A DNA stretch of 47,972 nt, from assembly GCA_022360955.1 (NCBI GenBank), contig JAKSBV010000465.1, positions 1 through 47,972 on the forward strand. Reading direction: 5' to 3'. The DNA is from Bacillota bacterium. Lineage in GTDB: Bacteria > Bacillota > Clostridia > SK-Y3. The notes beneath the pieces were generated by a model. It saw only the letters and a program-made list of their open reading frames with translations, did not search any database and had not been told where the DNA came from. The position numbers and the translations under genes are program-made. The stretch's first letter is position 1, and every line of letters starts with the position of its first letter. Shown one piece after another: positions 30,576-41,598 of the stretch.

Positions 30576-32345
30576 TTACTGCACCAAATTAAAATAGGAG
30601 CCTCTTGGCGTATACGTAGTGTGCAGCAGCTTCTTTGCCTTTTCTCCCAGAGGCTGCCCTAGAAATGCTTCATATAAGTTCTTCACGTCGGGATTATCAT
30701 GGGACTGTCGCAGTTGGCTGTGCATATCGATCTTATACAATGCATCCGCCCTGTTATGTCTATAATCCAGTGAAATCCGTTTATGGTCTCGTCCGCCCAG
30801 AATGGGCTGTCCCCCGCCTCCCACGCAGCCGCCGGGACATCCCATAATCTCAATATAATCGTAATGTGCACCGTTTAATATCCTATCGAGGATAATACGG
30901 GCATTCCCCGTACCATGTGCAATCGCTACTTTGATTTCCTGGCTGCCCAGGTCCACCTTCGCTTCCTTTAACCCGCTCTGTCCTCTGAGTTCCTCAAAAT
31001 CGATCAGTCCCATTTCCCAGTTTTTCTTATTCAATATCGCATAAGCACTTCTGATTGCCGCCTCAATCACCCCGCCGGTAGCACCAAAGATGGCACCGGC
31101 ACCGGATGATACGCCAAAGGGCATGTCATAAGGCTCATCGGGAAGATTGCGAAAATGGATTCCTGCCTGCCGAATCATACGTCCCAACTCTCTTGTGGTA
31201 ATGACATGATCTATATCCCTATACCCGTCCCATCCCATTTCGGGCCGTGCCGCTTCGTACTTTTTAGCGGTACAGGGCATAACGGCAACCGATACAATCT
31301 TCGTTGGGTCTAAGCCTTCTTTTTCCGCATAGTACGTCTTAATCATGGCCCCAAACATTTCATGGGGGGATTTGCAGCTAGATAAATTCTCTAAAAATTG
31401 AGGATAAAAATGCTCTGCGAATTTTACCCATGCAGGGCAGCAGGAAGACAATAACGGCAGATTGCTTTGTCTCTGCAATCGTTCAATCAGTTCATGGGCC
31501 TCTTCCATGATGGTAAGATCGGCCGAAAGATCCGTCGGGAACACCCTTTTAAACCCCAGCCTTCTTAGCGCGGCTACCAGCTTGCCCGTTACAATGGTCC
31601 CGGTTTCCATTCCGAACATTTCTCCCAGCGTAACCTGAATAGAGGGCGCCGTCTGGACCACTACATACTTGTCCTTATCTGCCAGTGCGGCCCATACGCC
31701 CTCCGTGGCTTCCCGTTCAACAAGGGAACCGGTGGGACAGGCGATCACACATTGTCCGCAGGTAATACAATTGGTACTGCCCAAATCTCTCATAAAAGCA
31801 GGCGCAATCACAGTGTCTAAACCCCGCCGCTGGGCAGAGTACACATGCACCTCTTGTATTTTGTCACAAATTGCCTGGCATCTTCTGCATGAAATACACT
31901 TGTTGTAGTCACGCATAATAAAAGGATTGTCCATTTGGATGGGATACCTTTTGCTTTCCCCCGTCGCCCTTAAATTTCTAACCCCAAGATTGTCCGCAAC
32001 ATTTTGCAGCTCACAATTGAGATTTCGGATACACATCGTACATTCCCGGTCGTGCTCGGACAGCAATAGCTCGACCACTCTTTTGCGCGCTTTCCTCACT
32101 CTTTCCGTATTGGTATAGACTTGAATAGGCTGCGTGATGGGATAAACGCAGGAAGCCTGCAATGCTTTAACTCCTTCAATTTCTACAACACACACGCGAC
32201 AGGCGCCTATTTCATTAATCTCTTTCAAATAGCAAAGACTGGGGATTTCAATCCCTACTCTTAAAGCTGCTTCCAGTATACTGGTTCCTTTTTCTACTTC
32301 CACTTCCAAATCGTCTATCGTTAATTTTACAATTTCCTCCGGCAT
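30576..32345 (-). CDS. hydA: [FeFe] hydrogenase catalytic subunit HydA (NADH-linked, multimeric type)
   Basis: 589 residues from ATG 32345, 5 bases after the hydB stop, with GAGGGTG upstream. Domains in order: N-terminal 2Fe-2S (CYLKEINEIGACRVC), the His/3Cys 4Fe-4S site (HDRECTMCIRNLNC), two 4Fe-4S ferredoxin motifs (CISCRRCQAIC and CITCGQCVIACP) and the H-cluster domain. The H-cluster motifs are SSCCPAW (L1; usually TSCCPGW), MPCTAKKYE (L2) and MGCPGGCVGGGGQP (L3). It makes or splits H2. With HydB and HydC it would form a cytoplasmic enzyme exchanging electrons with NADH and possibly ferredoxin (electron bifurcation). The mode is inferred from subunit content, not shown. Confidence 0.93.
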   Translation of the reverse strand: MPEEIVKLTIDDLEVEVEKGTSILEAALRVGIEIPSLCYLKEINEIGACRVCVVEIEGVKALQASCVYPITQPIQVYTNTERVRKARKRVVELLLSEHDRECTMCIRNLNCELQNVADNLGVRNLRATGESKRYPIQMDNPFIMRDYNKCISCRRCQAICDKIQEVHVYSAQRRGLDTVIAPAFMRDLGSTNCITCGQCVIACPTGSLVEREATEGVWAALADKDKYVVVQTAPSIQVTLGEMFGMETGTIVTGKLVAALRRLGFKRVFPTDLSADLTIMEEAHELIERLQRQSNLPLLSSCCPAWVKFAEHFYPQFLENLSSCKSPHEMFGAMIKTYYAEKEGLDPTKIVSVAVMPCTAKKYEAARPEMGWDGYRDIDHVITTRELGRMIRQAGIHFRNLPDEPYDMPFGVSSGAGAIFGATGGVIEAAIRSAYAILNKKNWEMGLIDFEELRGQSGLKEAKVDLGSQEIKVAIAHGTGNARIILDRILNGAHYDYIEIMGCPGGCVGGGGQPILGGRDHKRISLDYRHNRADALYKIDMHSQLRQSHDNPDVKNLYEAFLGQPLGEKAKKLLHTTYTPRGSYFNLVQ

Positions 32346-32350
32346 TTTTT

Positions 32351-34225
32351 TCACCCTCTTTCCACCGCACCCACCGGACATTTTTCGAAGCATGCACCGC
32401 AGTTAATACATTTTTCGTCCAAAATTTTATACGGCGGTTTTTTGCGCTCTCCCGCAACGGCTTCCACACCACATGCTTTGGCACACAAACCGCACGCAAT
32501 ACATTTTTCCGGAATCACTCTGTAGCGACGCAGTTTTTCACATGCACCGGCCGGACACCTTTTATCTTTCACATGGGCAATATATTCATTTCTAAAATAT
32601 TTTAAGGTGCTGATCACAGGATTAGGCGCCGTCTGCCCCAAGCCGCATAATGATCCTTCCTTAATATCGTCTCCCAATGCTACCAACTCGTCTAAATCCT
32701 CCATTTCTCCTTCACCGTCGGTTACTCTTCTTAATATCTCCAGCATTCTTCGTGTTCCGATTCTACAAGGCGTGCATTTTCCGCAGGATTCGTCCTGTGA
32801 GAATTCGACATAAAATTTTGCGATGTCTACCATGCAATTGCTTTCATCCATAACAATCATACCGCCGGAACCCATCATCGAACCGATACGGTTTAACGAT
32901 TCATAATCAATAGCCGTGTCCAGATATTGTTCCGGGATACATCCCCCGGAAGGACCGCCGGTCTGTACCGCTTTAAACTTCTTGTCTCCCGGAATACCCC
33001 CTCCGATCTCATAGATAATGGTCCGCAGCGTTGTCCCCATCGGCACTTCGATCAGTCCCGTATTGTTAATCTGACCTGCAAGGGCGAAAACCTTCGTACC
33101 CTTGCTCTTTTCGGTACCCAGTGAAGCATACCATTTTGCACCGTTTAATATAATCTTCGGAACATTTGCAAAAGTTTCTACGTTGTTGACTAGCGTAGGT
33201 TTTTCATACAGCCCCGAAACAGCAGGAAAAGGCGGTCTCGGACGGGGTTCTCCCCTTTTTCCTACCGTAGAGCTGAGCAGCGCCGTCTCTTCCCCACATA
33301 CGAAAGCGCCCGCTCCTAACCGCAGTTCTACATTAAATTCAAACCCTGTTCCCAATATATTCTCTCCTAACAAGCCCTGTTTCCTCGCATCCTCAATAGC
33401 CACTTCCAGTCGATCTACCGCAATGGGGTACTCTGCCCGCACATAAATATATCCCTGCTTTGATCCCACAGCATACCCGGCAATAGCCATAGCCTCAATA
33501 ACGGTGTGAGGATCTCCCTCCAAAATACTTCTATCCATAAAAGCGCCCGGATCTCCTTCATCGGCATTACAGACTATATACTTTGCATCGGATAGAGACT
33601 CATATGTAAATCTCCATTTCTTACCGGTGGGGAACCCTGCGCCGCCCCTTCCCCTTAAACCGGACCCGGAGATACTATCGATAACCTGCTCCTGCGTATA
33701 TTCCGTCAGCACTTTATATAATGCAAAGTAGCCGTTCACCGCTATGTATTCTTCTATATTCTCGGGATCAATGACACCGCAGTTTTGCAGGGCAATCCGT
33801 TTTTGGTGATCGAAAAATGTAATACTGTCTACCGTTTCCTGCACCTCTTGATCTACAGGAGATCTATATAAGATTTCCTGCACCGCCTGTCCATTTTGCA
33901 GATGCTGTGTTACGATTTTGTCTACATCCTGTTCACCGACCTGGCAATAAAACGTTTTATCCGGATAAACAACAACAAGTGGTCCCAATTTGCAAAAACC
34001 GAAACATCCCGTTCTCAATATTCTTGCTTTATGCTCTAATCCGCCATCTTTTATAGCTTGTGCAAGTTTTTCTCTTACTTTTTCACCTTCGGAAGCAACA
34101 CATCCCGTACCGGCACATACTAAAACATCATACCTTTTTTCGTCCTGTTCCATCCCGATCCGCGCACTGATTTTCTTTTTTGCGCTTTCTCTGATCTCTT
34201 TCAAAGCTTGAATATCGGTTATCAA
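32351..34225 (-). CDS. hydB: HydB, NuoF-like NADH/flavin subunit of the [FeFe] hydrogenase
   Basis: 624 residues. Start is TTG 34225, six bases after AAGGAGG. Domains: an N-terminal thioredoxin-like 2Fe-2S part (CAGTGCVASEG, then RTGCFGFCKLGP; residues about 37-78), the NuoF core with the NADH site (GRGGAGFPTGKKW near residue 195) and FMN site (NADEGDPGAFMDR), the NuoF 4Fe-4S motif (ESCGKCTPCRIGTRRM) and a C-terminal pair of 4Fe-4S motifs (CIACGLCAKAC, CINCGACFEKCP). It oxidises or forms NADH and relays electrons to HydA. In known bifurcating enzymes HydC is the third subunit; here hydC is 5.4 kb away, at 39647-40123. Confidence 0.94.
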   Translation of the reverse strand: MITDIQALKEIRESAKKKISARIGMEQDEKRYDVLVCAGTGCVASEGEKVREKLAQAIKDGGLEHKARILRTGCFGFCKLGPLVVVYPDKTFYCQVGEQDVDKIVTQHLQNGQAVQEILYRSPVDQEVQETVDSITFFDHQKRIALQNCGVIDPENIEEYIAVNGYFALYKVLTEYTQEQVIDSISGSGLRGRGGAGFPTGKKWRFTYESLSDAKYIVCNADEGDPGAFMDRSILEGDPHTVIEAMAIAGYAVGSKQGYIYVRAEYPIAVDRLEVAIEDARKQGLLGENILGTGFEFNVELRLGAGAFVCGEETALLSSTVGKRGEPRPRPPFPAVSGLYEKPTLVNNVETFANVPKIILNGAKWYASLGTEKSKGTKVFALAGQINNTGLIEVPMGTTLRTIIYEIGGGIPGDKKFKAVQTGGPSGGCIPEQYLDTAIDYESLNRIGSMMGSGGMIVMDESNCMVDIAKFYVEFSQDESCGKCTPCRIGTRRMLEILRRVTDGEGEMEDLDELVALGDDIKEGSLCGLGQTAPNPVISTLKYFRNEYIAHVKDKRCPAGACEKLRRYRVIPEKCIACGLCAKACGVEAVAGERKKPPYKILDEKCINCGACFEKCPVGAVERG

Positions 34226-34276
34226 AATATCCCTCCTTGGTATAGGTTCGGTGTTTGGAGAATAATAGGCTTGCGT

Positions 34277-34291
34277 TTAGTTTTTGATAAT
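34277..34291 (-). promoter_or_regulatory. 15-base motif upstream of hydB shared with hydC
   Basis: TTAGTTTTTGATAAT (plus-strand reading) occurs about 52 bases upstream of the hydB start and again at 40154-40168, about 31 bases upstream of hydC. A TATTAT at about 34263 might serve as a -10 for a hydB promoter. The motif does not match a Rex site. Shared regulation is inferred. Confidence 0.45.
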
Positions 34292-34322
34292 TAGGTCAGA
34301 TTATGCACGAAGTCTTTCGGGC

Positions 34323-34350
34323 AAAAAAAGAATGCATATTTCATGCATTC
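34323..34350 (-). terminator. Rho-independent terminator of sigI-rsgI
   Basis: On the minus strand GAATGCAT, a five-base loop, ATGCATTC and then seven T. It begins four bases after the rsgI stop. The hairpin core is almost the same as at 30542-30566. Confidence 0.8.
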
Positions 34351-34354
34351 TCTT

Positions 34355-35806
34355 TTAATCCTCATTCTTTCTCTTTCTATTTTCTTTTTTCCTGTCTCTG
34401 TCCTCACCATTGCCGTCTCTGTCTTCTTCCTCGTCGTCCTCTTCCTCTTCTTCATCTTTCTCTTTCTCTTTACGCCGCTCGTCCTGTTTCCGGTCTGCGT
34501 TTCGCCTGAACTTTTCCCATTTATTTCTATCTTGATTTTTTCTCTTATCTTCTTGGGCTTTCTCCGCTCTTTTTATATCGTCTTCGTCGTCTTTATCATC
34601 TTCGTTCTCTCTATCTTTATTATCATCTTTCTCCTTAGCCTTATCGCTATGTCTAGTTATTTTTTCATCTATTTTTTTATCTATTTTTCTCCTTTTATCC
34701 TTAATGTCATCTTTTATTCTTTCTTTGATTTTTTCTCTCATTTCTTCTCTTTCCTTTTGCAGCTCTTCCCATTTTTTATTCCTTTGTTCTGCCCATTGCC
34801 GCTGGTACTCTTTGTATGCATTTGTCTCTTCCCGTTGTTTGCGGTCCCATCCTTTATTCTTCTCTTGGGTTTGTTCTGCTTTTCTATCCAAATTTTGCTC
34901 TCTTCTCTCCACTAGCCGATCTTTAAGCTTCCTTTCAATCAAAGGCCTCTTCTGCTCTTCTATTTTATCGCTATCTTTTTTCCGGGCCTTTTTCCTGCCG
35001 TCCTCATCTTTTTCTTTATCTTTCGTTTCATTCTCTGCTTTATGTCTCTTTCTATCCTCTATTTTTATTTTTGAAACCGCTTGTTCCAACGTTACTTTTC
35101 CACGCTTTAAGATATCTCCTAATTCTTCCTCCTTGACCTGCTCCGTAATCTCTTCTGCTTTTTCCACACTTTTAATGACTTTTAGCTTTGCTGCCGTAAT
35201 CCCTAACACTTCCGCTTCCTCACGTACTTGTTCATCTACAACAACACTAGCTACTTCGGCCTTTTGCTGATTCTCTGTCAGAATTTCCTGCTGCACTATC
35301 TTGAGGTGCTTCAATTGCTCCTGTAAATTTTTTTCATCACTCTTTTCCCTCTCAACCACTGAAATAAGGATATTATTCTCCTTGGTATCGGAGATATACT
35401 GCAAGGCAATCGATGCCTTTGTAAAATCCGAAAGAGCTTTGTCAATTTTCTCACCTTTATACTGCATGTTCGCCAACACTTTTTCGGCATCACCATTCAA
35501 AGCCCGTGCACTAATAACCCTTTCGTCCCGATTGATAGCAAACTCGACACTGGGGTTAATGTCCATCGTTACATAGGCATAGACCTTTTGCTCCGCTACA
35601 AACGCATTGAATATCTGCGAAAGCCCTAATACAATCATCAAACATGCGGCTATTAACCCTATGTATCTATGCTTCCTATGATTATTTCGTATAACAACTT
35701 CTTCTCCTATGGCGCTATCCAGTTTTTGATTGATTCTTTTATACTCCCCGCCGGGTGTAAGAAGAATGCTGTGATTTTCTCCCTTTTCAATGATGATGCC
35801 TCTCAC
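34355..35806 (-). CDS. rsgI: RsgI-type anti-sigma factor with a highly charged extracellular tail
   Basis: 483 residues. Residues 1-45 are the cytoplasmic anti-sigma domain (MRGIIIEKGENHSILLT start); one membrane helix lies at about 48-69. The conserved outer region follows with YVTMDINPSVEF (Asn84-Pro85, the peptide bond where RsgI proteins are known to cleave themselves) and NGDAEKVLANM. From about residue 250 to the end it is almost entirely Lys, Glu, Asp and Arg, closing with an acidic run (positions about 450-465) and a basic tip. Clostridial RsgI proteins often end in carbohydrate-binding or protease domains; none is visible here. The tail may form a long charged helix through the wall. 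It binds SigI from the gene 13 bases upstream. Confidence 0.85.
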   Translation of the reverse strand: MRGIIIEKGENHSILLTPGGEYKRINQKLDSAIGEEVVIRNNHRKHRYIGLIAACLMIVLGLSQIFNAFVAEQKVYAYVTMDINPSVEFAINRDERVISARALNGDAEKVLANMQYKGEKIDKALSDFTKASIALQYISDTKENNILISVVEREKSDEKNLQEQLKHLKIVQQEILTENQQKAEVASVVVDEQVREEAEVLGITAAKLKVIKSVEKAEEITEQVKEEELGDILKRGKVTLEQAVSKIKIEDRKRHKAENETKDKEKDEDGRKKARKKDSDKIEEQKRPLIERKLKDRLVERREQNLDRKAEQTQEKNKGWDRKQREETNAYKEYQRQWAEQRNKKWEELQKEREEMREKIKERIKDDIKDKRRKIDKKIDEKITRHSDKAKEKDDNKDRENEDDKDDEDDIKRAEKAQEDKRKNQDRNKWEKFRRNADRKQDERRKEKEKDEEEEEDDEEEDRDGNGEDRDRKKENRKRKNED

Positions 35807-35819
35807 ATTAAACCATCTC

Positions 35820-36566
35820 CTATAAAATGTCTCTAATATATTCTCTTATATAATACAGATCACTATCTAAAAGCACAAAAGTAGCCATAATATATTTCCT
35901 ATGGCGTTCTAACGTCTTTTTGCTCACATTTGTCATGGAAGATATTCTGGCAATGGGAAGCCGTTTTTTCTTTAGGACTTCACTCTTTAATAATTCGTCG
36001 TGTAAAACCGTCTTAACAATTTTGGTAACTTTTTTTCTGGTTGCTATGTGCTTGGGACAAACCTTTACGAGTTCATCAAAACAGATTGAGAATTCTTCCA
36101 AAAGCACTTTGAATATTGTAATTTCTTGGGCCAAGTTGACTTGATCCGTCTGTTGCTGCAAACTTTGCCGTGCAATATGTTCTTCAACGTTAACCTCTCC
36201 CTTCTCATGATCAACGGCTAATTGACTAAATTGTATTTCTTCATTTCTCTTTATTTTTCTAACATAGTCAATCAAAGCTCTTTTGATTAAAAGAGTCGCA
36301 AAAGGAAAAAAAGCATCATTCTTAGCCGCATCAAAGCTATCGATTGCTTTATTAAAGCCAATGAGTGCAACACTATATTCTTCATCATTTTCAATCTCAA
36401 TATATTTTCCCCTGAATCTACTGGTAACACTTAATATGAAGTTTTTATATTTATCAATAAATTCATTCCTTTTATTTTCGTCTCCTTTTTGAATTTGTAC
36501 AATTTCATCTATAACGGTCGTCTCTTTTTCCGTCGTTACCGCTTTTTGAAATGGAAAAATCCGCAT
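35820..36566 (-). CDS. sigI: RNA polymerase sigma factor SigI
   Basis: 248 residues, the usual size. The region-2-like part reads EIENDEEYSVALIGFNKAID (about 57-76) followed by FFPFATLLIKRALIDYVRK, typical of SigI, and the C-terminus holds a helix-turn-helix (PIARISSMTNVSKKTLERHR, about 204-223). SigI factors respond to heat or, in cellulolytic clostridia, to polysaccharide sensed by RsgI. Start ATG 36566 has GGCGGTGA upstream. It is followed 13 bases later by rsgI. A promoter-like block 25 bases upstream matches that of the SLH gene, indicating self-activation and a local target. Confidence 0.9.
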   Translation of the reverse strand: MRIFPFQKAVTTEKETTVIDEIVQIQKGDENKRNEFIDKYKNFILSVTSRFRGKYIEIENDEEYSVALIGFNKAIDSFDAAKNDAFFPFATLLIKRALIDYVRKIKRNEEIQFSQLAVDHEKGEVNVEEHIARQSLQQQTDQVNLAQEITIFKVLLEEFSICFDELVKVCPKHIATRKKVTKIVKTVLHDELLKSEVLKKKRLPIARISSMTNVSKKTLERHRKYIMATFVLLDSDLYYIREYIRDIL

Positions 36567-36590
36567 GCAAGATCACCGCCTAATAAACAA

Positions 36591-36619
36591 TACGTTTTTC
36601 CTGTTATTTTTATAGGGGT
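36591..36619 (-). promoter_or_regulatory. Predicted SigI-dependent promoter of sigI-rsgI
   Basis: On the minus strand ACCCC (36615-36619), a 20-base spacer beginning TATAAAAATAACAGG, then CGTA (36591-36594). ACCCCC/CGAA-like elements are what is known of B. subtilis SigI promoters. The same block with the same spacing stands before the SLH gene at 39162-39190. Confidence 0.65.
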
Positions 36620-36639
36620 CGATAAAGATAAAATTTCAA

Positions 36640-36950
36640 GGGCATCGAATTCTTTCGATTTCGTTCGGCAGGCACAAAGAAGGAGAGCCGTCTCCACACC
36701 GCACTCCGGCCGGAAAATTATTTTATCCCATTCTCCCGGCGTCTAAATAAAACCCATGTGAAAAGTTCATCGCGAAATATATGGTTTGTATTAATTAGAA
36801 AAACATATTTTGTGATGCGAATATTATATCATAAAACATCATTGCCGTATATTAACAAATATTCCCTATCTCCTTCGGGTATATGTGATTACGTTGAAGA
36901 AAATTATGGAAACAACCAACATTTATTTTCCCCTTCCCCGACGTTTTTTT
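36640..36950. other. Gene-free region with a GC-rich, structured stretch
   Basis: Between sigI and the SLH-gene terminator no gene is seen. 36665-36745 is much richer in GC than its surroundings. On the minus strand GCCGGGAGAA can pair with TTTTCCGGC, GGAGACGGCTCTCC forms a hairpin, CCGGCCGG is palindromic, and ATCGAAAGAATTCGAT lies near 36645-36660. It may be a structured RNA leader; no known riboswitch class was recognised. Confidence 0.35.
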
Positions 36951-36956
36951 AATAAA

Positions 36957-36992
36957 AGAAGATGTGGTAAAGTGCTTCTGCCACATCCTCCT
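36957..36992 (-). terminator. Terminator of the SLH-protein gene
   Basis: On the minus strand GATGTGG, a 13-base loop, CCACATC, then TTCTTTTATT. It lies about 80 bases after the stop of the SLH gene. Confidence 0.6.
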
Positions 36993-37068
36993 CTATAGTG
37001 ATATTCCATTTCAAACTATATCATTTTATAAATGTTTTTAAGTTTAGCGTCCCGTAGCTTTTATAGCA

Positions 37069-39120
37069 TTAATCATCTATCTCCATTTTAATAATGGTCC
37101 GATTAACAACTTCAAACTCTCCCTCTTGACCTACTTTTAAATCAAAAACATCCGCATTCTCTACATCCTCTATATCAATCTCGGCATTGTCGCTAACTTC
37201 ATAGGTAACCTTTTGTTTATCAAATGTTAACGTCAGCTTTGTTGTGCTGCCGATTTGAAGGATAGAGTATATTTCTGCCTCTACTTCAAATTCATGGTCT
37301 TTCGCATTTATGCCGTAAACCAAACCATTTCTTACTTTTAACTTTGCTTCCATGCCTTTTTCCAAATTACTTAACGTATCGTTATACCCTTCTATATCGA
37401 TCACCAGCAAATTGGCAAATTTATATTCCTCGGTTTTATCGTACACTTCAATGCTAATCGACTTTTCATCTACTTCTGTTATGATTCCTTCTACTTCTTT
37501 GAATTGATCGTCAACGTCAATCCGAACCACAACATTATTTACGATTTCAAACTCGCCCACATCTCCCACTGCCAAGTCTTCCAGATCCATATTTTTTTTA
37601 CCGCCGATTTCTATTTCCAAATCTTCTGCAAGGCCATAGGTGACCACATTGCCATTTTCTTTTTTGATGCTTATTTCATCATCGTCAATATCCTTTATCT
37701 CACCTTCAATTTCCAACACGGCGTCTTTTGCATGAACAGATACAATGTAATCATCCCGCAAAATAGCTTCTACCCTCATTCCTTTCGTCAGATCTTTCAA
37801 TGTCTCTTTCTCTCCGTCAATCACCACTTCTGCTTTTTTCGATAAACGATATTTTGTATTATCGATTGTGATATGGTAATTGCCGAACAAATCTAACGAC
37901 GTTATGAACCCTTCAATTTCTTCTCCGTTTTGGCCTTCGCTCTTTCGTTTCACGTATATTCTTCTGGCTCTATTTTTATTATCAACAACAACGGTTATAT
38001 TATCATTGACTTTAAGTTCGTTAAAGCTGCCTTTCCCGTCTTTAAAATGCACCTGCACTTTATCGATGACTTCAAAGATTACCTGCATTTTTTGCATATT
38101 AATTGTGAGGCTTCTCGGATTGCTTTTTTCTATATCTTTGATAGTACCGGTATATTTTGAAATAATCTTATTATTTTGATCATCCTTATCAATAACTTCA
38201 ATATAGACTACTTCATCATCTTCAAGTTCCACTAAAACGGTGCTGCCTCGCTTGATGTCCCAATAACCTATTCTGCTGTTTCTATCATAGACAATGACAT
38301 CGTCTTCTTCCACTTCAAAGGATTTTAATTGGCCATCTACCTTCAGCGTAATGCGATCTCTATAGACTCTATGTACTTCGCCCACATACTCATCTTCGTC
38401 AATATCACTATCGACTTTCCTATCGAGTCTTTGGAACAATACGGCCATTTCCGCCCTCGTTAACGTACCCATCGGGTTAAATCTTTTTAAATCATCTCCC
38501 TGCATCAATCCCATATCATTGACAAGGTATACGTATCCTACCGACCCCTGGGGAACAGCAGCAGCATCTACAAACGGCAATTTTGCATTCATATACTCAT
38601 CGGCCTCATCCTCATATCCCAATGCCCTTATCACATATTTTGCTACTTCATGCCTTGCAGCCGGCGCCTGCGGGTCAAAATACATCAAGTCTACATTGTC
38701 AAGCAGTCCTTTTTGGTAGGCTACTGCAACATAGCCATACGCCCATTGGCCCACTTTTTTTCCTTTGTACTGTTTCGGAAGCTTTCTTATGCTTTTCGCT
38801 TCCTCTTCCCACCCCATAATTCTAAGGGCCATAATAATAGACTCTAATTTTGTAACAGCCTTACGCGGTGCATATCTTCCATCGCCGTACCCTTTGATCA
38901 GTCCTTTTAATTTCATTTTTTCAATTGCCTGTCTAGCCCATGGGATTTCCTCTATGTCAATAAATACATTTTTAATCATTATAGCCGGCTTCCTATTCTT
39001 GCTGTTTGCCCAGCTCAACGGTGTACATCCTCTGTTTTCGTTCCCATATGCAAAAACTGTTGTCATACCTGTTGACAGTAGAAATGTCAAAACTAAAATT
39101 ACAGATATTACTCTTTTCAT
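37069..39120 (-). CDS. S-layer-homology (SLH) surface protein with tandem β-rich repeats
   Basis: 683 residues with a Sec signal peptide (MKRVISVILVLTFLLSTGMT, cleavage near AYG, residue 25). Three SLH domains follow at about 50-105, 118-172 and 185-238, with GLIKGYGDGRYAPRKAVTK and GLMQGDDLKRFNPMGTLTR as clear members; these bind pyruvylated wall polymers. Residues 240-683 are acidic and contain some six related modules of 65-75 residues, each with a pattern like EGxIxxVDxxxISI, a central DL..GM and a final VxxIxxxD. No catalytic motif is seen, so a structural or ligand-binding surface role is likely. The gene lies just upstream of sigI and has a matching SigI-type promoter. The start ATG is 12 bases from GGGAGG, rather far. 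Confidence 0.87.
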   Translation of the reverse strand: MKRVISVILVLTFLLSTGMTTVFAYGNENRGCTPLSWANSKNRKPAIMIKNVFIDIEEIPWARQAIEKMKLKGLIKGYGDGRYAPRKAVTKLESIIMALRIMGWEEEAKSIRKLPKQYKGKKVGQWAYGYVAVAYQKGLLDNVDLMYFDPQAPAARHEVAKYVIRALGYEDEADEYMNAKLPFVDAAAVPQGSVGYVYLVNDMGLMQGDDLKRFNPMGTLTRAEMAVLFQRLDRKVDSDIDEDEYVGEVHRVYRDRITLKVDGQLKSFEVEEDDVIVYDRNSRIGYWDIKRGSTVLVELEDDEVVYIEVIDKDDQNNKIISKYTGTIKDIEKSNPRSLTINMQKMQVIFEVIDKVQVHFKDGKGSFNELKVNDNITVVVDNKNRARRIYVKRKSEGQNGEEIEGFITSLDLFGNYHITIDNTKYRLSKKAEVVIDGEKETLKDLTKGMRVEAILRDDYIVSVHAKDAVLEIEGEIKDIDDDEISIKKENGNVVTYGLAEDLEIEIGGKKNMDLEDLAVGDVGEFEIVNNVVVRIDVDDQFKEVEGIITEVDEKSISIEVYDKTEEYKFANLLVIDIEGYNDTLSNLEKGMEAKLKVRNGLVYGINAKDHEFEVEAEIYSILQIGSTTKLTLTFDKQKVTYEVSDNAEIDIEDVENADVFDLKVGQEGEFEVVNRTIIKMEIDD

Positions 39121-39161
39121 AGTGCCAAAATACCTCCCTTATTCATTATTCGTTATATATA

Positions 39162-39190
39162 TTCGAAACGCCCGTTATTTTTATGGGGGT
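39162..39190 (-). promoter_or_regulatory. Predicted SigI-dependent promoter of the SLH gene
   Basis: On the minus strand ACCCC (39186-39190), a 20-base spacer beginning CATAAAAATAACGGG, then CGAA (39162-39165). ATAAAAATAAC and spacing are identical to the sigI promoter block at 36591-36619. The distance to the ATG is about 42 bases. Confidence 0.65.
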
Positions 39191-39204
39191 ATTTTTTAAA
39201 AAAA

Positions 39205-39645
39205 TAGTTGACAGTTGACAGCTGACAGTGGACAGTGGACAGTTAAAAAGGAGAGAATAGTTGAGGGTTGAGAACGGATGAGTTGCCGTTAGACAACACC
39301 TTGGTTGTCACTCCCTTCCCCAAGCCCCCTTAATTAACATCACTATTCATTCTTAATTCTTAATTAACTTCCCCCTCATCCACTAAAACAACCACGAATT
39401 AGTTCCCAATTTATATAATTCTTCATCCCTAATGAACACCCCTCATTCTTCATTCTTAATTATTCATCCCCACCCATTCCCACCAGCCACTAAAACAACC
39501 TATGAAACGGAAGACGGAGATCTGACTAAAAAATTCTTCGTGCTTTAATGTCAATTCCTTATCGAGATCTATATAATTCTTAATTCTTAATTAACACCCC
39601 TCATTATCCATTATTAATTATTCATTATTCATTATTAATTATCCA
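39205..39645. repeat. Cluster of seven-base-periodic intergenic repeats
   Basis: The whole gap between the SLH gene promoter and hydC is made of short imperfect heptamer arrays: GTTGACA/GCTGACA/GTGGACA (39206-39243), GTTGAGGGTTGAGAA (39260-39275), AATTCTT/CATTCTT blocks and ATTCATT/ATTAATT (39605-39650). CACTAAAACAACC occurs twice and AACACCCCTCATT twice. No gene was found. Confidence 0.75.
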
Positions 39646-39646
39646 T

Positions 39647-40123
39647 TCACCCACTATCTCCATATTTCTCCAATATCCTCGGGATATCATCCGCATTTAT
39701 TCTTCCATGCACATCATCGCCTATCGTAATAACCGGTGCCAATCCGCATGCACCGATGCAGCGGGTGGCACGCAAGGTAAACACGCCATCCTTTGTGGTC
39801 TCATCTTCATTGATTTTCAATTCGCTTTTCAACTTTTTGAGAATATCGTTTGCACCTTTTACATAGCATGCTGTCCCCAAACATACACCAATAATATGCT
39901 TGCCTTTCGGCTTTGTGGAAAACAGGGAATAGAAAGTCACTACTCCGTTTACTTCACTCACAGGAATCTTGAGTTTGTCTGCTATATAAATCTGTACATC
40001 TTCCGATAGGTAACCGTAAATATCCTGTACCTTTTGAAGAATTCTGATAAGATGCTCCGGTTCGGTATATTGGGTCATAATTGCATCAATTTCTTTATAG
40101 TCCGGCTTTTCTTTTAACTGCAT
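39647..40123 (-). CDS. hydC: HydC, NuoE-like 2Fe-2S subunit of the [FeFe] hydrogenase
   Basis: 158 residues, normal for NuoE/HydC. The thioredoxin-like fold has the four 2Fe-2S ligands in the order GVCLGTACYVKGA (about 80-92) and RATRCIGACGLAPV (about 118-131). It starts at ATG 40123 with AAAGGGTG upstream. It would link HydB's flavin to HydA. In most genomes hydC, hydB and hydA are adjacent; here the SLH gene, sigI and rsgI separate it from hydB, all on the same strand. A NuoE-like subunit for another enzyme such as formate dehydrogenase is possible, but no such gene is near and hydB has the matching 15-base upstream motif. Confidence 0.9.
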   Translation of the reverse strand: MQLKEKPDYKEIDAIMTQYTEPEHLIRILQKVQDIYGYLSEDVQIYIADKLKIPVSEVNGVVTFYSLFSTKPKGKHIIGVCLGTACYVKGANDILKKLKSELKINEDETTKDGVFTLRATRCIGACGLAPVITIGDDVHGRINADDIPRILEKYGDSG

Positions 40124-40153: not shown

Positions 40154-40168
40154 TTAGTTTTTGATAAT
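40154..40168 (-). promoter_or_regulatory. 15-base motif upstream of hydC shared with hydB
   Basis: TTAGTTTTTGATAAT (plus-strand reading) is identical to 34277-34291. Its flanks differ, so it is not a long duplication. No good -10 element lies between it and the hydC start. Confidence 0.45.
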
Positions 40169-40261
40169 CATGCAAATATATGCGTAAAACTGCTTGCAGA
40201 ATATATTAAAGCATTGTAAAAAATGAATTTTTTATTGATACAATGTTTCTTGCTATATACC

Positions 40262-40289
40262 TTGACATTCTATATACAAAGAGTATAAT
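40262..40289 (+). promoter_or_regulatory. Promoter of padR-lepB group
   Basis: TTGACA (40262-40267), 16 bases, TATAAT (40284-40289). CTATATAC occurs at 40253-40260 and TCTATATAC at 40269-40277, flanking the -35, a possible autoregulatory PadR site. Confidence 0.65.
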
Positions 40290-40320
40290 AATAAAAAGGA
40301 CAACTATAGGAGTGATTGAT

Positions 40321-40665
40321 TTGTTTTCACACATTGATATTAAAGGCAATATGAACCTAATTATCCTATCCGTTTTATCTAAAAACGATAAATATGGCTA
40401 TGAGATATCAAAAGAAATATACACGCTCACCGAGCAACGTATTCGACTCAAAGAAGGAAGTCTGTATCCTGCTCTGCACAGGCTGGAAAAGCAAGCACTT
40501 ATTGAAGGTTACTGGGTTGAACAGGAACCGGGAAAACCGAATAGGAAATATTATAGGATAACCGAAAAAGGAAGAAGCATGATTGAATTGGAAAAACAGG
40601 AGTGGATCTCATTCATTAAAATTATGGGGAGGATTATCTGTGAAGGAGAAAGTACCGGAATTTGA
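40321..40665 (+). CDS. PadR-family transcriptional regulator
   Basis: 114 residues from TTG 40321, chosen because AGGAGTG lies nine bases upstream and the size then fits the family. The winged helix is clear: SKNDKYGYEISKEI, LKEGSLYPALHRLEKQALIEGYW (in part the recognition helix and wing) and RKYYRITEKGRSMIE. PadR proteins are small dimeric repressors. The next gene overlaps its end by 26 bases; pairs of PadR plus a small membrane protein are common in Firmicutes and often sense envelope stress or drugs. Confidence 0.85.
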   Translation: MFSHIDIKGNMNLIILSVLSKNDKYGYEISKEIYTLTEQRIRLKEGSLYPALHRLEKQALIEGYWVEQEPGKPNRKYYRITEKGRSMIELEKQEWISFIKIMGRIICEGESTGI

Positions 40666-40996
40666 AAAATATATAAATGCTTTATCCCTACAATTACAGA
40701 TGGATAAAAATATAAATTATGACATATGCACGGAAATCCAGCAAAGTATGTATGACAAGTATAATGAATATCTTATCCGTGGATACGGCATAAAAGAAAG
40801 TACGGTCTATACGTTAAATACTTATGAATCGCCGGAAGCATTAGCCCATACGTTCAATAATCTTTATAAGGAAAAACAGCAAAATCATTCTTATAAAAGT
40901 GTTTTCTCTAATAGAAAACTGCTATTTGCACATATCCTAATCATTATTACAGTTACCATGCTGCTGGGTATCGGCGTATGCTTTGCAAAGTGGTAG
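40640..40996 (+). CDS. Small membrane protein partnered with PadR
   Basis: 118 residues from GTG 40640, with GGGGAGG eight bases upstream. The N-terminal 80 residues are soluble and helical (FEKYINALSLQLQ, YDICTEIQQSMYDKYNEYL), resembling the HAAS/permease-prefix domain found beside PadR regulators; one membrane helix follows at about 94-114 (FAHILIIITVTMLLGIGVCF). Such proteins are thought to tie PadR to the membrane. Function not recognised beyond this. The extended frame from 40583 lies inside padR and is not supported. Confidence 0.6.
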   Translation: MKEKVPEFEKYINALSLQLQMDKNINYDICTEIQQSMYDKYNEYLIRGYGIKESTVYTLNTYESPEALAHTFNNLYKEKQQNHSYKSVFSNRKLLFAHILIIITVTMLLGIGVCFAKW

Positions 40997-41052
40997 GCTT
41001 AGAAAAAGAGTGGCATCCGCGAATTATCTAGAATAAAAGGAGAATCAATAAG

Positions 41053-41598
41053 ATGGAAATAACGTCACATATGATATTTAAGAATGCTTTGGATTGGGCT
41101 AAGTCTATCATTATTGCTCTGGTAATAGCCTTACTCATTCGTTACTTTGTATTTTCACCCTTTGTCATTCCTACAGGCTCCATGATACCTACTATTCAAG
41201 TCAATGATAAAATAATTGCTTTAAAGTTCAGCTATTGGTTAGCCCCTGTAAAACGGGATGATATCATCGTATTTCGCGCACCGAATGGCGTGCGTATACC
41301 CACGCCGACAGGCTATAAAGAAAATGCATTATTGGTAAAAAGGGTAATCGGTCTTGGCGGGGAAACCATAGAAATAAAAAACGGTCAATTATATATCAAT
41401 AATGTTCTGCAGTCGAAACCTTATATTTATGAACCGATTAAACAAGACTTCGGACCCTATACAATCCCAGAGGATTGTTATTTTGTAATGGGTGACAACA
41501 CAAATGGTTCTCACGACGCAAGATCTTGGAAGCAAAGATATATCACTAAGGATCTGATTATCGGAAAAGCCGTATACAAATTTGGCGGACTGAAATAG
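41053..41598 (+). CDS. lepB: Signal peptidase I
   Basis: 181 residues. A single N-terminal membrane helix (about 17-35) is followed by the catalytic region outside the membrane: Ser43 in PTGSMIPTI and Lys96 in VKRVIGLGGE make the Ser/Lys dyad; GDNTNGSHDARSW is the conserved box E. It removes signal peptides of secreted proteins. The sequence is of the Gram-positive SipS type. AAGGAG precedes ATG 41053. It lies 57 bases after the small membrane protein gene, so it may be cotranscribed with padR. Confidence 0.93.
   Translation: MEITSHMIFKNALDWAKSIIIALVIALLIRYFVFSPFVIPTGSMIPTIQVNDKIIALKFSYWLAPVKRDDIIVFRAPNGVRIPTPTGYKENALLVKRVIGLGGETIEIKNGQLYINNVLQSKPYIYEPIKQDFGPYTIPEDCYFVMGDNTNGSHDARSWKQRYITKDLIIGKAVYKFGGLK

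Follow-up and report, generated by a model that had tools for sequence, protein, structure and literature searches.

A probable SigI-RsgI envelope switch with a dedicated SLH-domain surface protein as its output in a clostridial genome

To our knowledge, SigI sigma factors in Clostridia are known almost only from the control of cellulosomes. The locus described here raises the question of what a SigI factor and its anti-sigma factor RsgI govern when they are encoded beside a gene for a surface protein with S-layer homology (SLH) domains. The window, i.e., the entire stretch of 47,972 nucleotides that was analysed, contains these genes in the minus-strand order hydC, SLH, sigI, rsgI, hydB, hydA, with the following features:

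39647-40123, minus strand: hydC
34226-39646: the SLH-sigI-rsgI cassette, between hydC and hydB; in relatives, hydC and hydB are found together without it
39154-39190, minus strand: SigI-type promoter of the SLH gene, ACCCCC-AT-AA-(15 nt)-CGAA-TAT-ATATA, kept in orthologs
39133-39140, minus strand: Shine-Dalgarno sequence of the SLH gene, AAGGGAGG
37069-39120, minus strand: SLH surface protein, 683 aa, with a signal peptide, three SLH domains (about 47-236) and six tandem OB-like beta-barrel modules (about 242-683)
36950-36995, minus strand: strong hairpin separating the SLH gene from sigI (-19.8 kcal/mol, z -5.4)
36591-36619, minus strand: SigI-type promoter of sigI-rsgI, ACCCCT-AT-AA-(15 nt)-CGTA, with a T five bases past CGTA
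35820-36566, minus strand: sigI, RNA polymerase sigma-I factor, 248 aa (TIGR02895, 194 bits against a cut-off of 185)
34355-35806, minus strand: rsgI, anti-sigma-I factor, 483 aa, GTG start (Pfam RsgI_N, 35 bits; RsgI_M, 111 bits)
32351-34225, minus strand: hydB
30576-32393, minus strand: hydA

The three cassette genes are what an earlier, sequence-only reading of this DNA had taken them for, as indicated by the matches to TIGR02895, to Pfam RsgI_N and RsgI_M, and to Pfam SLH. By its position between hydC and hydB, the cassette interrupts an operon for an [FeFe]-hydrogenase. The closest relative has contiguous hydC, hydB and hydA genes (83, 79 and 89% identity, respectively), and in the genomes G003, G004, G027 and G059, hydC and hydB lie close together without the SLH, sigI and rsgI genes. 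Given that hydC and hydB are unsplit in these relatives, the three cassette genes apparently arrived in this genome, or were shifted within it, as a single unit. Both hydB and hydC are preceded by the 15-base direct repeat TTAGTTTTTGATAAT (34277-34291 and 40154-40168, respectively), which may represent a hydrogenase promoter element that was copied. A PadR-type regulator and a signal-peptidase S26-family protein are encoded on the plus strand upstream of these genes (40243-41598), with a 12-of-12 match to a sigma-70-type promoter beside them (40262-40289). The A/T-rich intergenic region upstream of the SLH promoter (39200-39660) contains many degenerate short repeats, including GTTGACAG-like and TTAATTATTCATT-like units.

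The link between the surface protein and the switch was proposed on the basis of two minus-strand blocks of 29 bases, ACCCCTATAAAAATAACAGGAAAAACGTA upstream of sigI (36591-36619) and ACCCCCATAAAAATAACGGGCGTTTCGAA upstream of the SLH gene (39162-39190), which indeed are identical in 21 of 29 bases with equal spacing. The 20-bp flanks match at just 7/20 and 3/20 positions, so that the blocks are not remnants of a longer duplicated segment. The distance from block end to ATG is 24 bp for sigI (ATG at 36566) and 41 bp for the SLH gene (ATG at 39120), as would be expected of promoters. With up to three mismatches allowed, the originally described pattern matches only these two blocks in the window (0 expected from 100 shuffles), and a search of the entire draft genome (4.64 Mb in 522 contigs, 97% complete) with a slightly looser pattern returned the same two blocks only, compared to none in the reversed control. 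The genome-wide scan suggested earlier thus singles out the extended block but not the bare consensus: the much looser form ACCCC-N3-AA-N13..16-CGWA is no more common than its reverse (11 matches vs 15), and none of the inspected off-target matches resembled a surface-gene promoter, so the uniqueness stems from the extended block. When a profile derived solely from the SLH promoters of orthologs was scanned over the window, the SLH site ranked first, whereas the score of the sigI site was only about 8 bits, against up to 22.8 bits in random 48-kb sequences; accordingly, the case for the sigI site rests on the 29-base match and its position.

The likeness to the ACCCCC and CGAA elements of Bacillus SigI promoters, noted in the sequence-only reading, extends to the spacing. 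The Bacillales consensus is ACCCCC--AA-15N-CGAA----T (PMC4711584), and both sites in the window consist of ACCCCY-AT-AA, exactly 15 bases and CGWA, the sigI site deviating from this consensus by ACCCCT and CGTA. Clostridial SigI sites contain CGWA and, three bases later, an AT dyad (PMC6056542); this dyad is present at the SLH site (CGAA-TAT-AT), whereas the sigI site has CGTA-TTG-TT with the T of the Bacillales form. By the -35 element, the A-tract, CGWA and the Bacillales spacing, both sites are putative SigI-dependent promoters. With CGWA numbered -14 to -11 as published (PMC10575876), transcription is predicted to start near 39151 for the SLH gene and near 36580 for sigI, which would leave leaders of about 31 nt and about 14 nt, respectively. 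The hairpin that follows the SLH gene has no long U run, and none of 200 shuffled sequences folds as well; it likely terminates the SLH transcript, suggesting that the SLH gene and sigI are separate transcription units.

Orthologs of the SLH gene show 53-58% identity within the same family and extend far beyond this family (28-51%); their carriers include Petroclostridium sp. X23, Caloranaerobacter azorensis and Lutispora thermophila. Among the 29 genes with some upstream sequence, that of the window included, 20 have, shortly ahead of the start codon, the strict motif, defined as ACNCC-(18-22 nt)-CGWA-(2-4 nt)-TAT; seven have a degraded or variant form, and two have none (L090, and G026, where the contig ends). 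The variants read ACCTAAAA...CGTATTATATAG, or close to it, in four Lutispora-type genomes, ACTAC(C/T)TAAA or ACTACTAAAA...CGAA in two orthologs, and CAGAA instead of CGAA in one; in addition, some orthologs have a weak A-tract (GGATAATGG). The strict pattern was partly learned from the first orthologs and then fixed, and the 11 orthologs fetched thereafter yielded seven strict and four variant sites. Of the 281 gene starts in 61 loci, only those of 11 SLH orthologs and one sigI are preceded by the strict motif (Fisher 9e-16, a descriptive value given that the pattern was partly learned from these sites), and it is found before none of 27 other SLH genes. Position-wise conservation clearly exceeds the background only at the -35 element, the A-tract and the -10 element; this profile includes one row (G134) read at a wrong site, and the positions that the pattern demands are conserved in it by definition. 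The orthologs are related by descent and are not independent events; nonetheless, their flanks have diverged to background level.

The sigI-rsgI pair adjoins the SLH gene in three different orders, namely SLH-sigI-rsgI in the window, sigI-rsgI-SLH in L083, and divergently in the loci of four Lutispora-type genomes (L091, L094, L151 and L159); in the remaining loci, no SigI was found near the SLH gene in the DNA fetched around it. The promoter persists in orthologs where SigI-RsgI is unlinked, and the complete genome of Petroclostridium sp. X23 combines a single SigI with the conserved SLH promoter. Because the orthologs in about 20 other clostridia keep the SigI-type signal even when the switch is encoded elsewhere, the switch very probably governs the surface protein and not a cellulose-digesting machinery, as far as can be judged from sequence. 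In four loci (L054, L083, L090 and, partly, L082), WalR/PhoP-box-like direct repeats (TTACA-N6-TTACA, 11-bp period) lie before the SLH gene, and three of the four loci have them upstream of the SigI-type promoter; such repeats are absent upstream of the SLH promoter in the window. In Bacillus subtilis, SigI targets are co-activated by WalR.

Only one SigI in the window genome exceeds the cut-off, leaving a single candidate reader of both promoters. This protein aligns over its full length, i.e., sigma region 2 and the SigI-specific C-terminal domain, with the open-complex structures of C. thermocellum SigI6 and SigI1 (8i24 and 8i23). It retains R..D..R in the -10 helix and, in the domain that reads the A-tract, PKH, with isoleucine in place of the arginine after PKH; the roles of the residues that read the -10 C/G and the A-tract (K/R, H) are those described in PMC10575876. 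One SigI over the cut-off is encoded in each of G000, G003, G004, G027 and G059, and three are encoded in G001, so that the reader of the SLH promoter in the latter genome is ambiguous. A SigI-type promoter precedes sigI itself in the window, G027, L083, L131 and Lutispora. No such promoter was found before the sigI genes examined in G001, G003 and G004, although the SLH promoter is conserved there; autoregulation is therefore not universal.

In the RsgI protein, RsgI_N is followed by a transmembrane helix (judged from sequence) with an IAA motif, a predicted extracytoplasmic RsgI_M/SEAL domain containing DINPS, and a C-terminal tail that is long and charged; a Pfam domain search detected no carbohydrate-binding module (CBM). 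The structures 8her_B and 8u9o_B align to this protein from Pro85, which corresponds to their first residue, and by analogy the RsgI_M/SEAL domain probably self-cleaves at Asn84-Pro85. The IAA (XAA-type) motif in the helix appears compatible with intramembrane proteolysis.

The remaining cassette gene encodes a protein whose signal peptide was likewise judged from sequence and whose structural model has a mean pLDDT of 78 and a pTM of 0.45. The SLH trimer resembles the SLH domains of B. anthracis Sap (3pyw, TM 0.75) and also folds like 6cwc, whereas the C-terminal modules show sequence and fold matches only to OB-like barrels (S1, cold-shock and EF-P type), from which no function is transferable. 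These modules had been described as repeated and acidic, which holds for five of the six, the second being basic. Domain and fold searches detected no enzyme, cohesin or dockerin domain in the protein. The genome encodes the pyruvyl transferase CsaB and, together with the signal peptide and the three SLH domains, this identifies the product as a predicted SLH-anchored surface protein. About 18 SLH-type matches exist in the genome, this protein being one of them, and to speak of S-layer make-up, as had been proposed, accordingly went too far.

We consider it highly likely that SigI and RsgI form a self-contained envelope switch at this locus and that the SLH surface protein is its dedicated output. 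An autoregulated sigma/anti-sigma unit with an SLH output had been proposed from the window sequence and is now supported by the conservation of the promoter in orthologs, its absence before SLH paralogs and nearly all other genes, and the three adjoining gene orders. In such a switch, RsgI in the membrane would hold SigI. A surface signal would lead to intramembrane cleavage of the self-cleaved RsgI and to ClpXP degradation of its cytoplasmic part, by analogy with characterised RsgI proteins (PMC12203970, PMC7478892). Once freed, SigI would guide RNA polymerase to the two promoters of this type in the genome, so that it would autoregulate its own gene and also switch on the SLH gene. The SLH product would be exported, bound to the pyruvylated secondary cell-wall polymer via the three SLH domains, and display its six OB-like barrels.

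The SLH protein might additionally belong to the sensing loop, as a surface partner or decoy of RsgI that is made in proportion to SigI activity and feeds back on it. Such a role would fit the SLH gene being a dedicated and almost exclusive output in this genome and its repeated adjacency to the switch, the non-enzymatic nature of OB-like barrels, and the combination of an RsgI that has a long charged tail but no CBM with an SLH protein in which five of six modules are acidic. However, the adjacency is lost in most genomes, and surface proteins are commonly put out by envelope regulators anyway, so that we regard feedback as a minor, although real, possibility.

An improbable alternative is that this SigI efficiently reads only one of the two promoters and merely modulates the SLH gene, which would be transcribed mainly by another sigma factor, e.g., by sigma-A via TATATAAC. 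Many SLH and surface genes are constitutive, and in the SLH promoter CGAA is followed by ATATATATAAC. The -10 elements also differ, with CGTA before sigI and CGAA before the SLH gene, which is a caveat for joint reading by one SigI because some SigI paralogues, SigI3 or SigI6 of C. thermocellum, tell these two variants apart (PMC10575876). Against transcription by another factor, no well-placed sigma-A -35 element is listed for the SLH promoter, and ACCCC is fixed at 24-27 nt from CGWA in 20 orthologs with the flanks at background; the pattern itself demands ACNCC, CGWA and TAT, so that what counts independently is the extra C, the A-tract and the T at -2.

Still less probable is a cellulosome or biomass-sensing role of the cassette like that of the SigI units of Acetivibrio (Clostridium) thermocellum, a role in which the SLH protein would act as an anchoring scaffoldin. 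Membership in the SigI family, the presence of RsgI and SLH anchoring are shared with such units, and "SLH" appears in a figure of confirmed C. thermocellum SigI promoters. Nevertheless, RsgI carries no CBM, the SLH protein contains no cohesin, dockerin or catalytic domain, and the genome encodes a single borderline dockerin; none was found in G027 or G059, where the SLH promoter or the linkage is kept. On these features, assignment to the cellulosome-type SigI-RsgI systems was rejected. Finally, although the bare consensus occurs at chance frequency genome-wide and random sequence also yields high profile scores, it is hardly credible that chance or common low-complexity A/T-rich spacers made the blocks similar without any regulon, considering their uniqueness at three mismatches, their position before start codons, the conservation in orthologs, the absence before paralogs and the repeated linkage to sigI.

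The envelope switch with a surface-protein output might have counterparts elsewhere in the class. The exact 37-bp form of the promoter has 12 matches in 291 class genomes, compared to two in the reversed control; six of these precede this SLH gene, one precedes sigI, three precede one DUF5667, one Cu_amine_oxidN1 and one Wzz-type gene, and for two no target is evident. In other clostridia, secreted DUF5667 or Cu_amine_oxidN1 proteins are encoded behind similar promoters located beside sigI. Loci with a SigI-type promoter before a secreted or polysaccharide-related gene are L021, L022 and L132 (DUF5667-type), L018 and L122 (Cu_amine_oxidN1), L016, and L130 (Wzz), several of which directly adjoin sigI-rsgI, a hint that SigI may be paired with a surface protein more generally in Clostridia; in L122 (G003:C19), the Cu_amine_oxidN1 gene appears to be frame-shifted past the signal peptide. 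As a tentative generalisation, to which we give somewhat less than even chances, single CBM-less SigI-RsgI pairs could represent a widespread clostridial envelope switch. Its defining output would be a dedicated surface protein, either adjacent or at a conserved distant locus (SLH with OB-like modules here, DUF5667 or copper-amine-oxidase-N proteins elsewhere), that possibly feeds back on RsgI, and cellulosome regulons would be a specialised offshoot.

The coupling had been called new, and this is so in part: a conserved, non-cellulosomal SLH surface protein as the main SigI output appears to be new, and SigI control of a structural SLH protein was not found in a literature search that covered mainly openly available papers. 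However, SigI control of cell-envelope genes is already established in Bacillus (PMC7478892), and for C. thermocellum the figure showing the confirmed SigI promoters lists "SLH" among its domain abbreviations (PMC6056542). The conserved promoter before one SLH gene in many non-cellulosomal clostridia provides a concrete candidate regulon for an "ordinary" clostridial SigI and links this factor to the envelope role known from Bacillus; the SLH gene might also serve as a reporter for finding the signal sensed by RsgI.

Among known systems, B. anthracis Sap and Paenibacillus SpaA share with the protein described here the three SLH domains (3pyw and 6cwc folds), and csaB is present in this genome; the remainder of the protein differs in comprising six OB-like modules and no known S-layer assembly domain. 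The SigI1-SigI8/RsgI systems of Acetivibrio (Clostridium) thermocellum are similar in the SigI fold, the logic of A-tract and CGWA, the AT three bases past CGWA, and the RsgI proteolysis chain (PMC6056542, PMC10575876, PMC12203970). In contrast to their many SigIs and cellulosome regulons, the present genome combines one SigI and a CBM-less RsgI with a Bacillus-type ACCCC specificity region and a putative surface-protein output, without a cellulosome. In Bacillus subtilis, WalR acts as a co-activator; WalR/PhoP-like TTACA repeats precede the promoter in a few SLH orthologs but are absent there in the window. The B. subtilis SigI-RsgI system (envelope and heat stress; lytE, mreBH) is alike in its CBM-less RsgI, ACCCCC / CGAA promoter, RsgI_M/SEAL domain and envelope output (PMC4711584, PMC7478892), but its targets are autolysin and MreB genes, whereas here the predicted target is an SLH-anchored surface protein encoded next to the switch itself.
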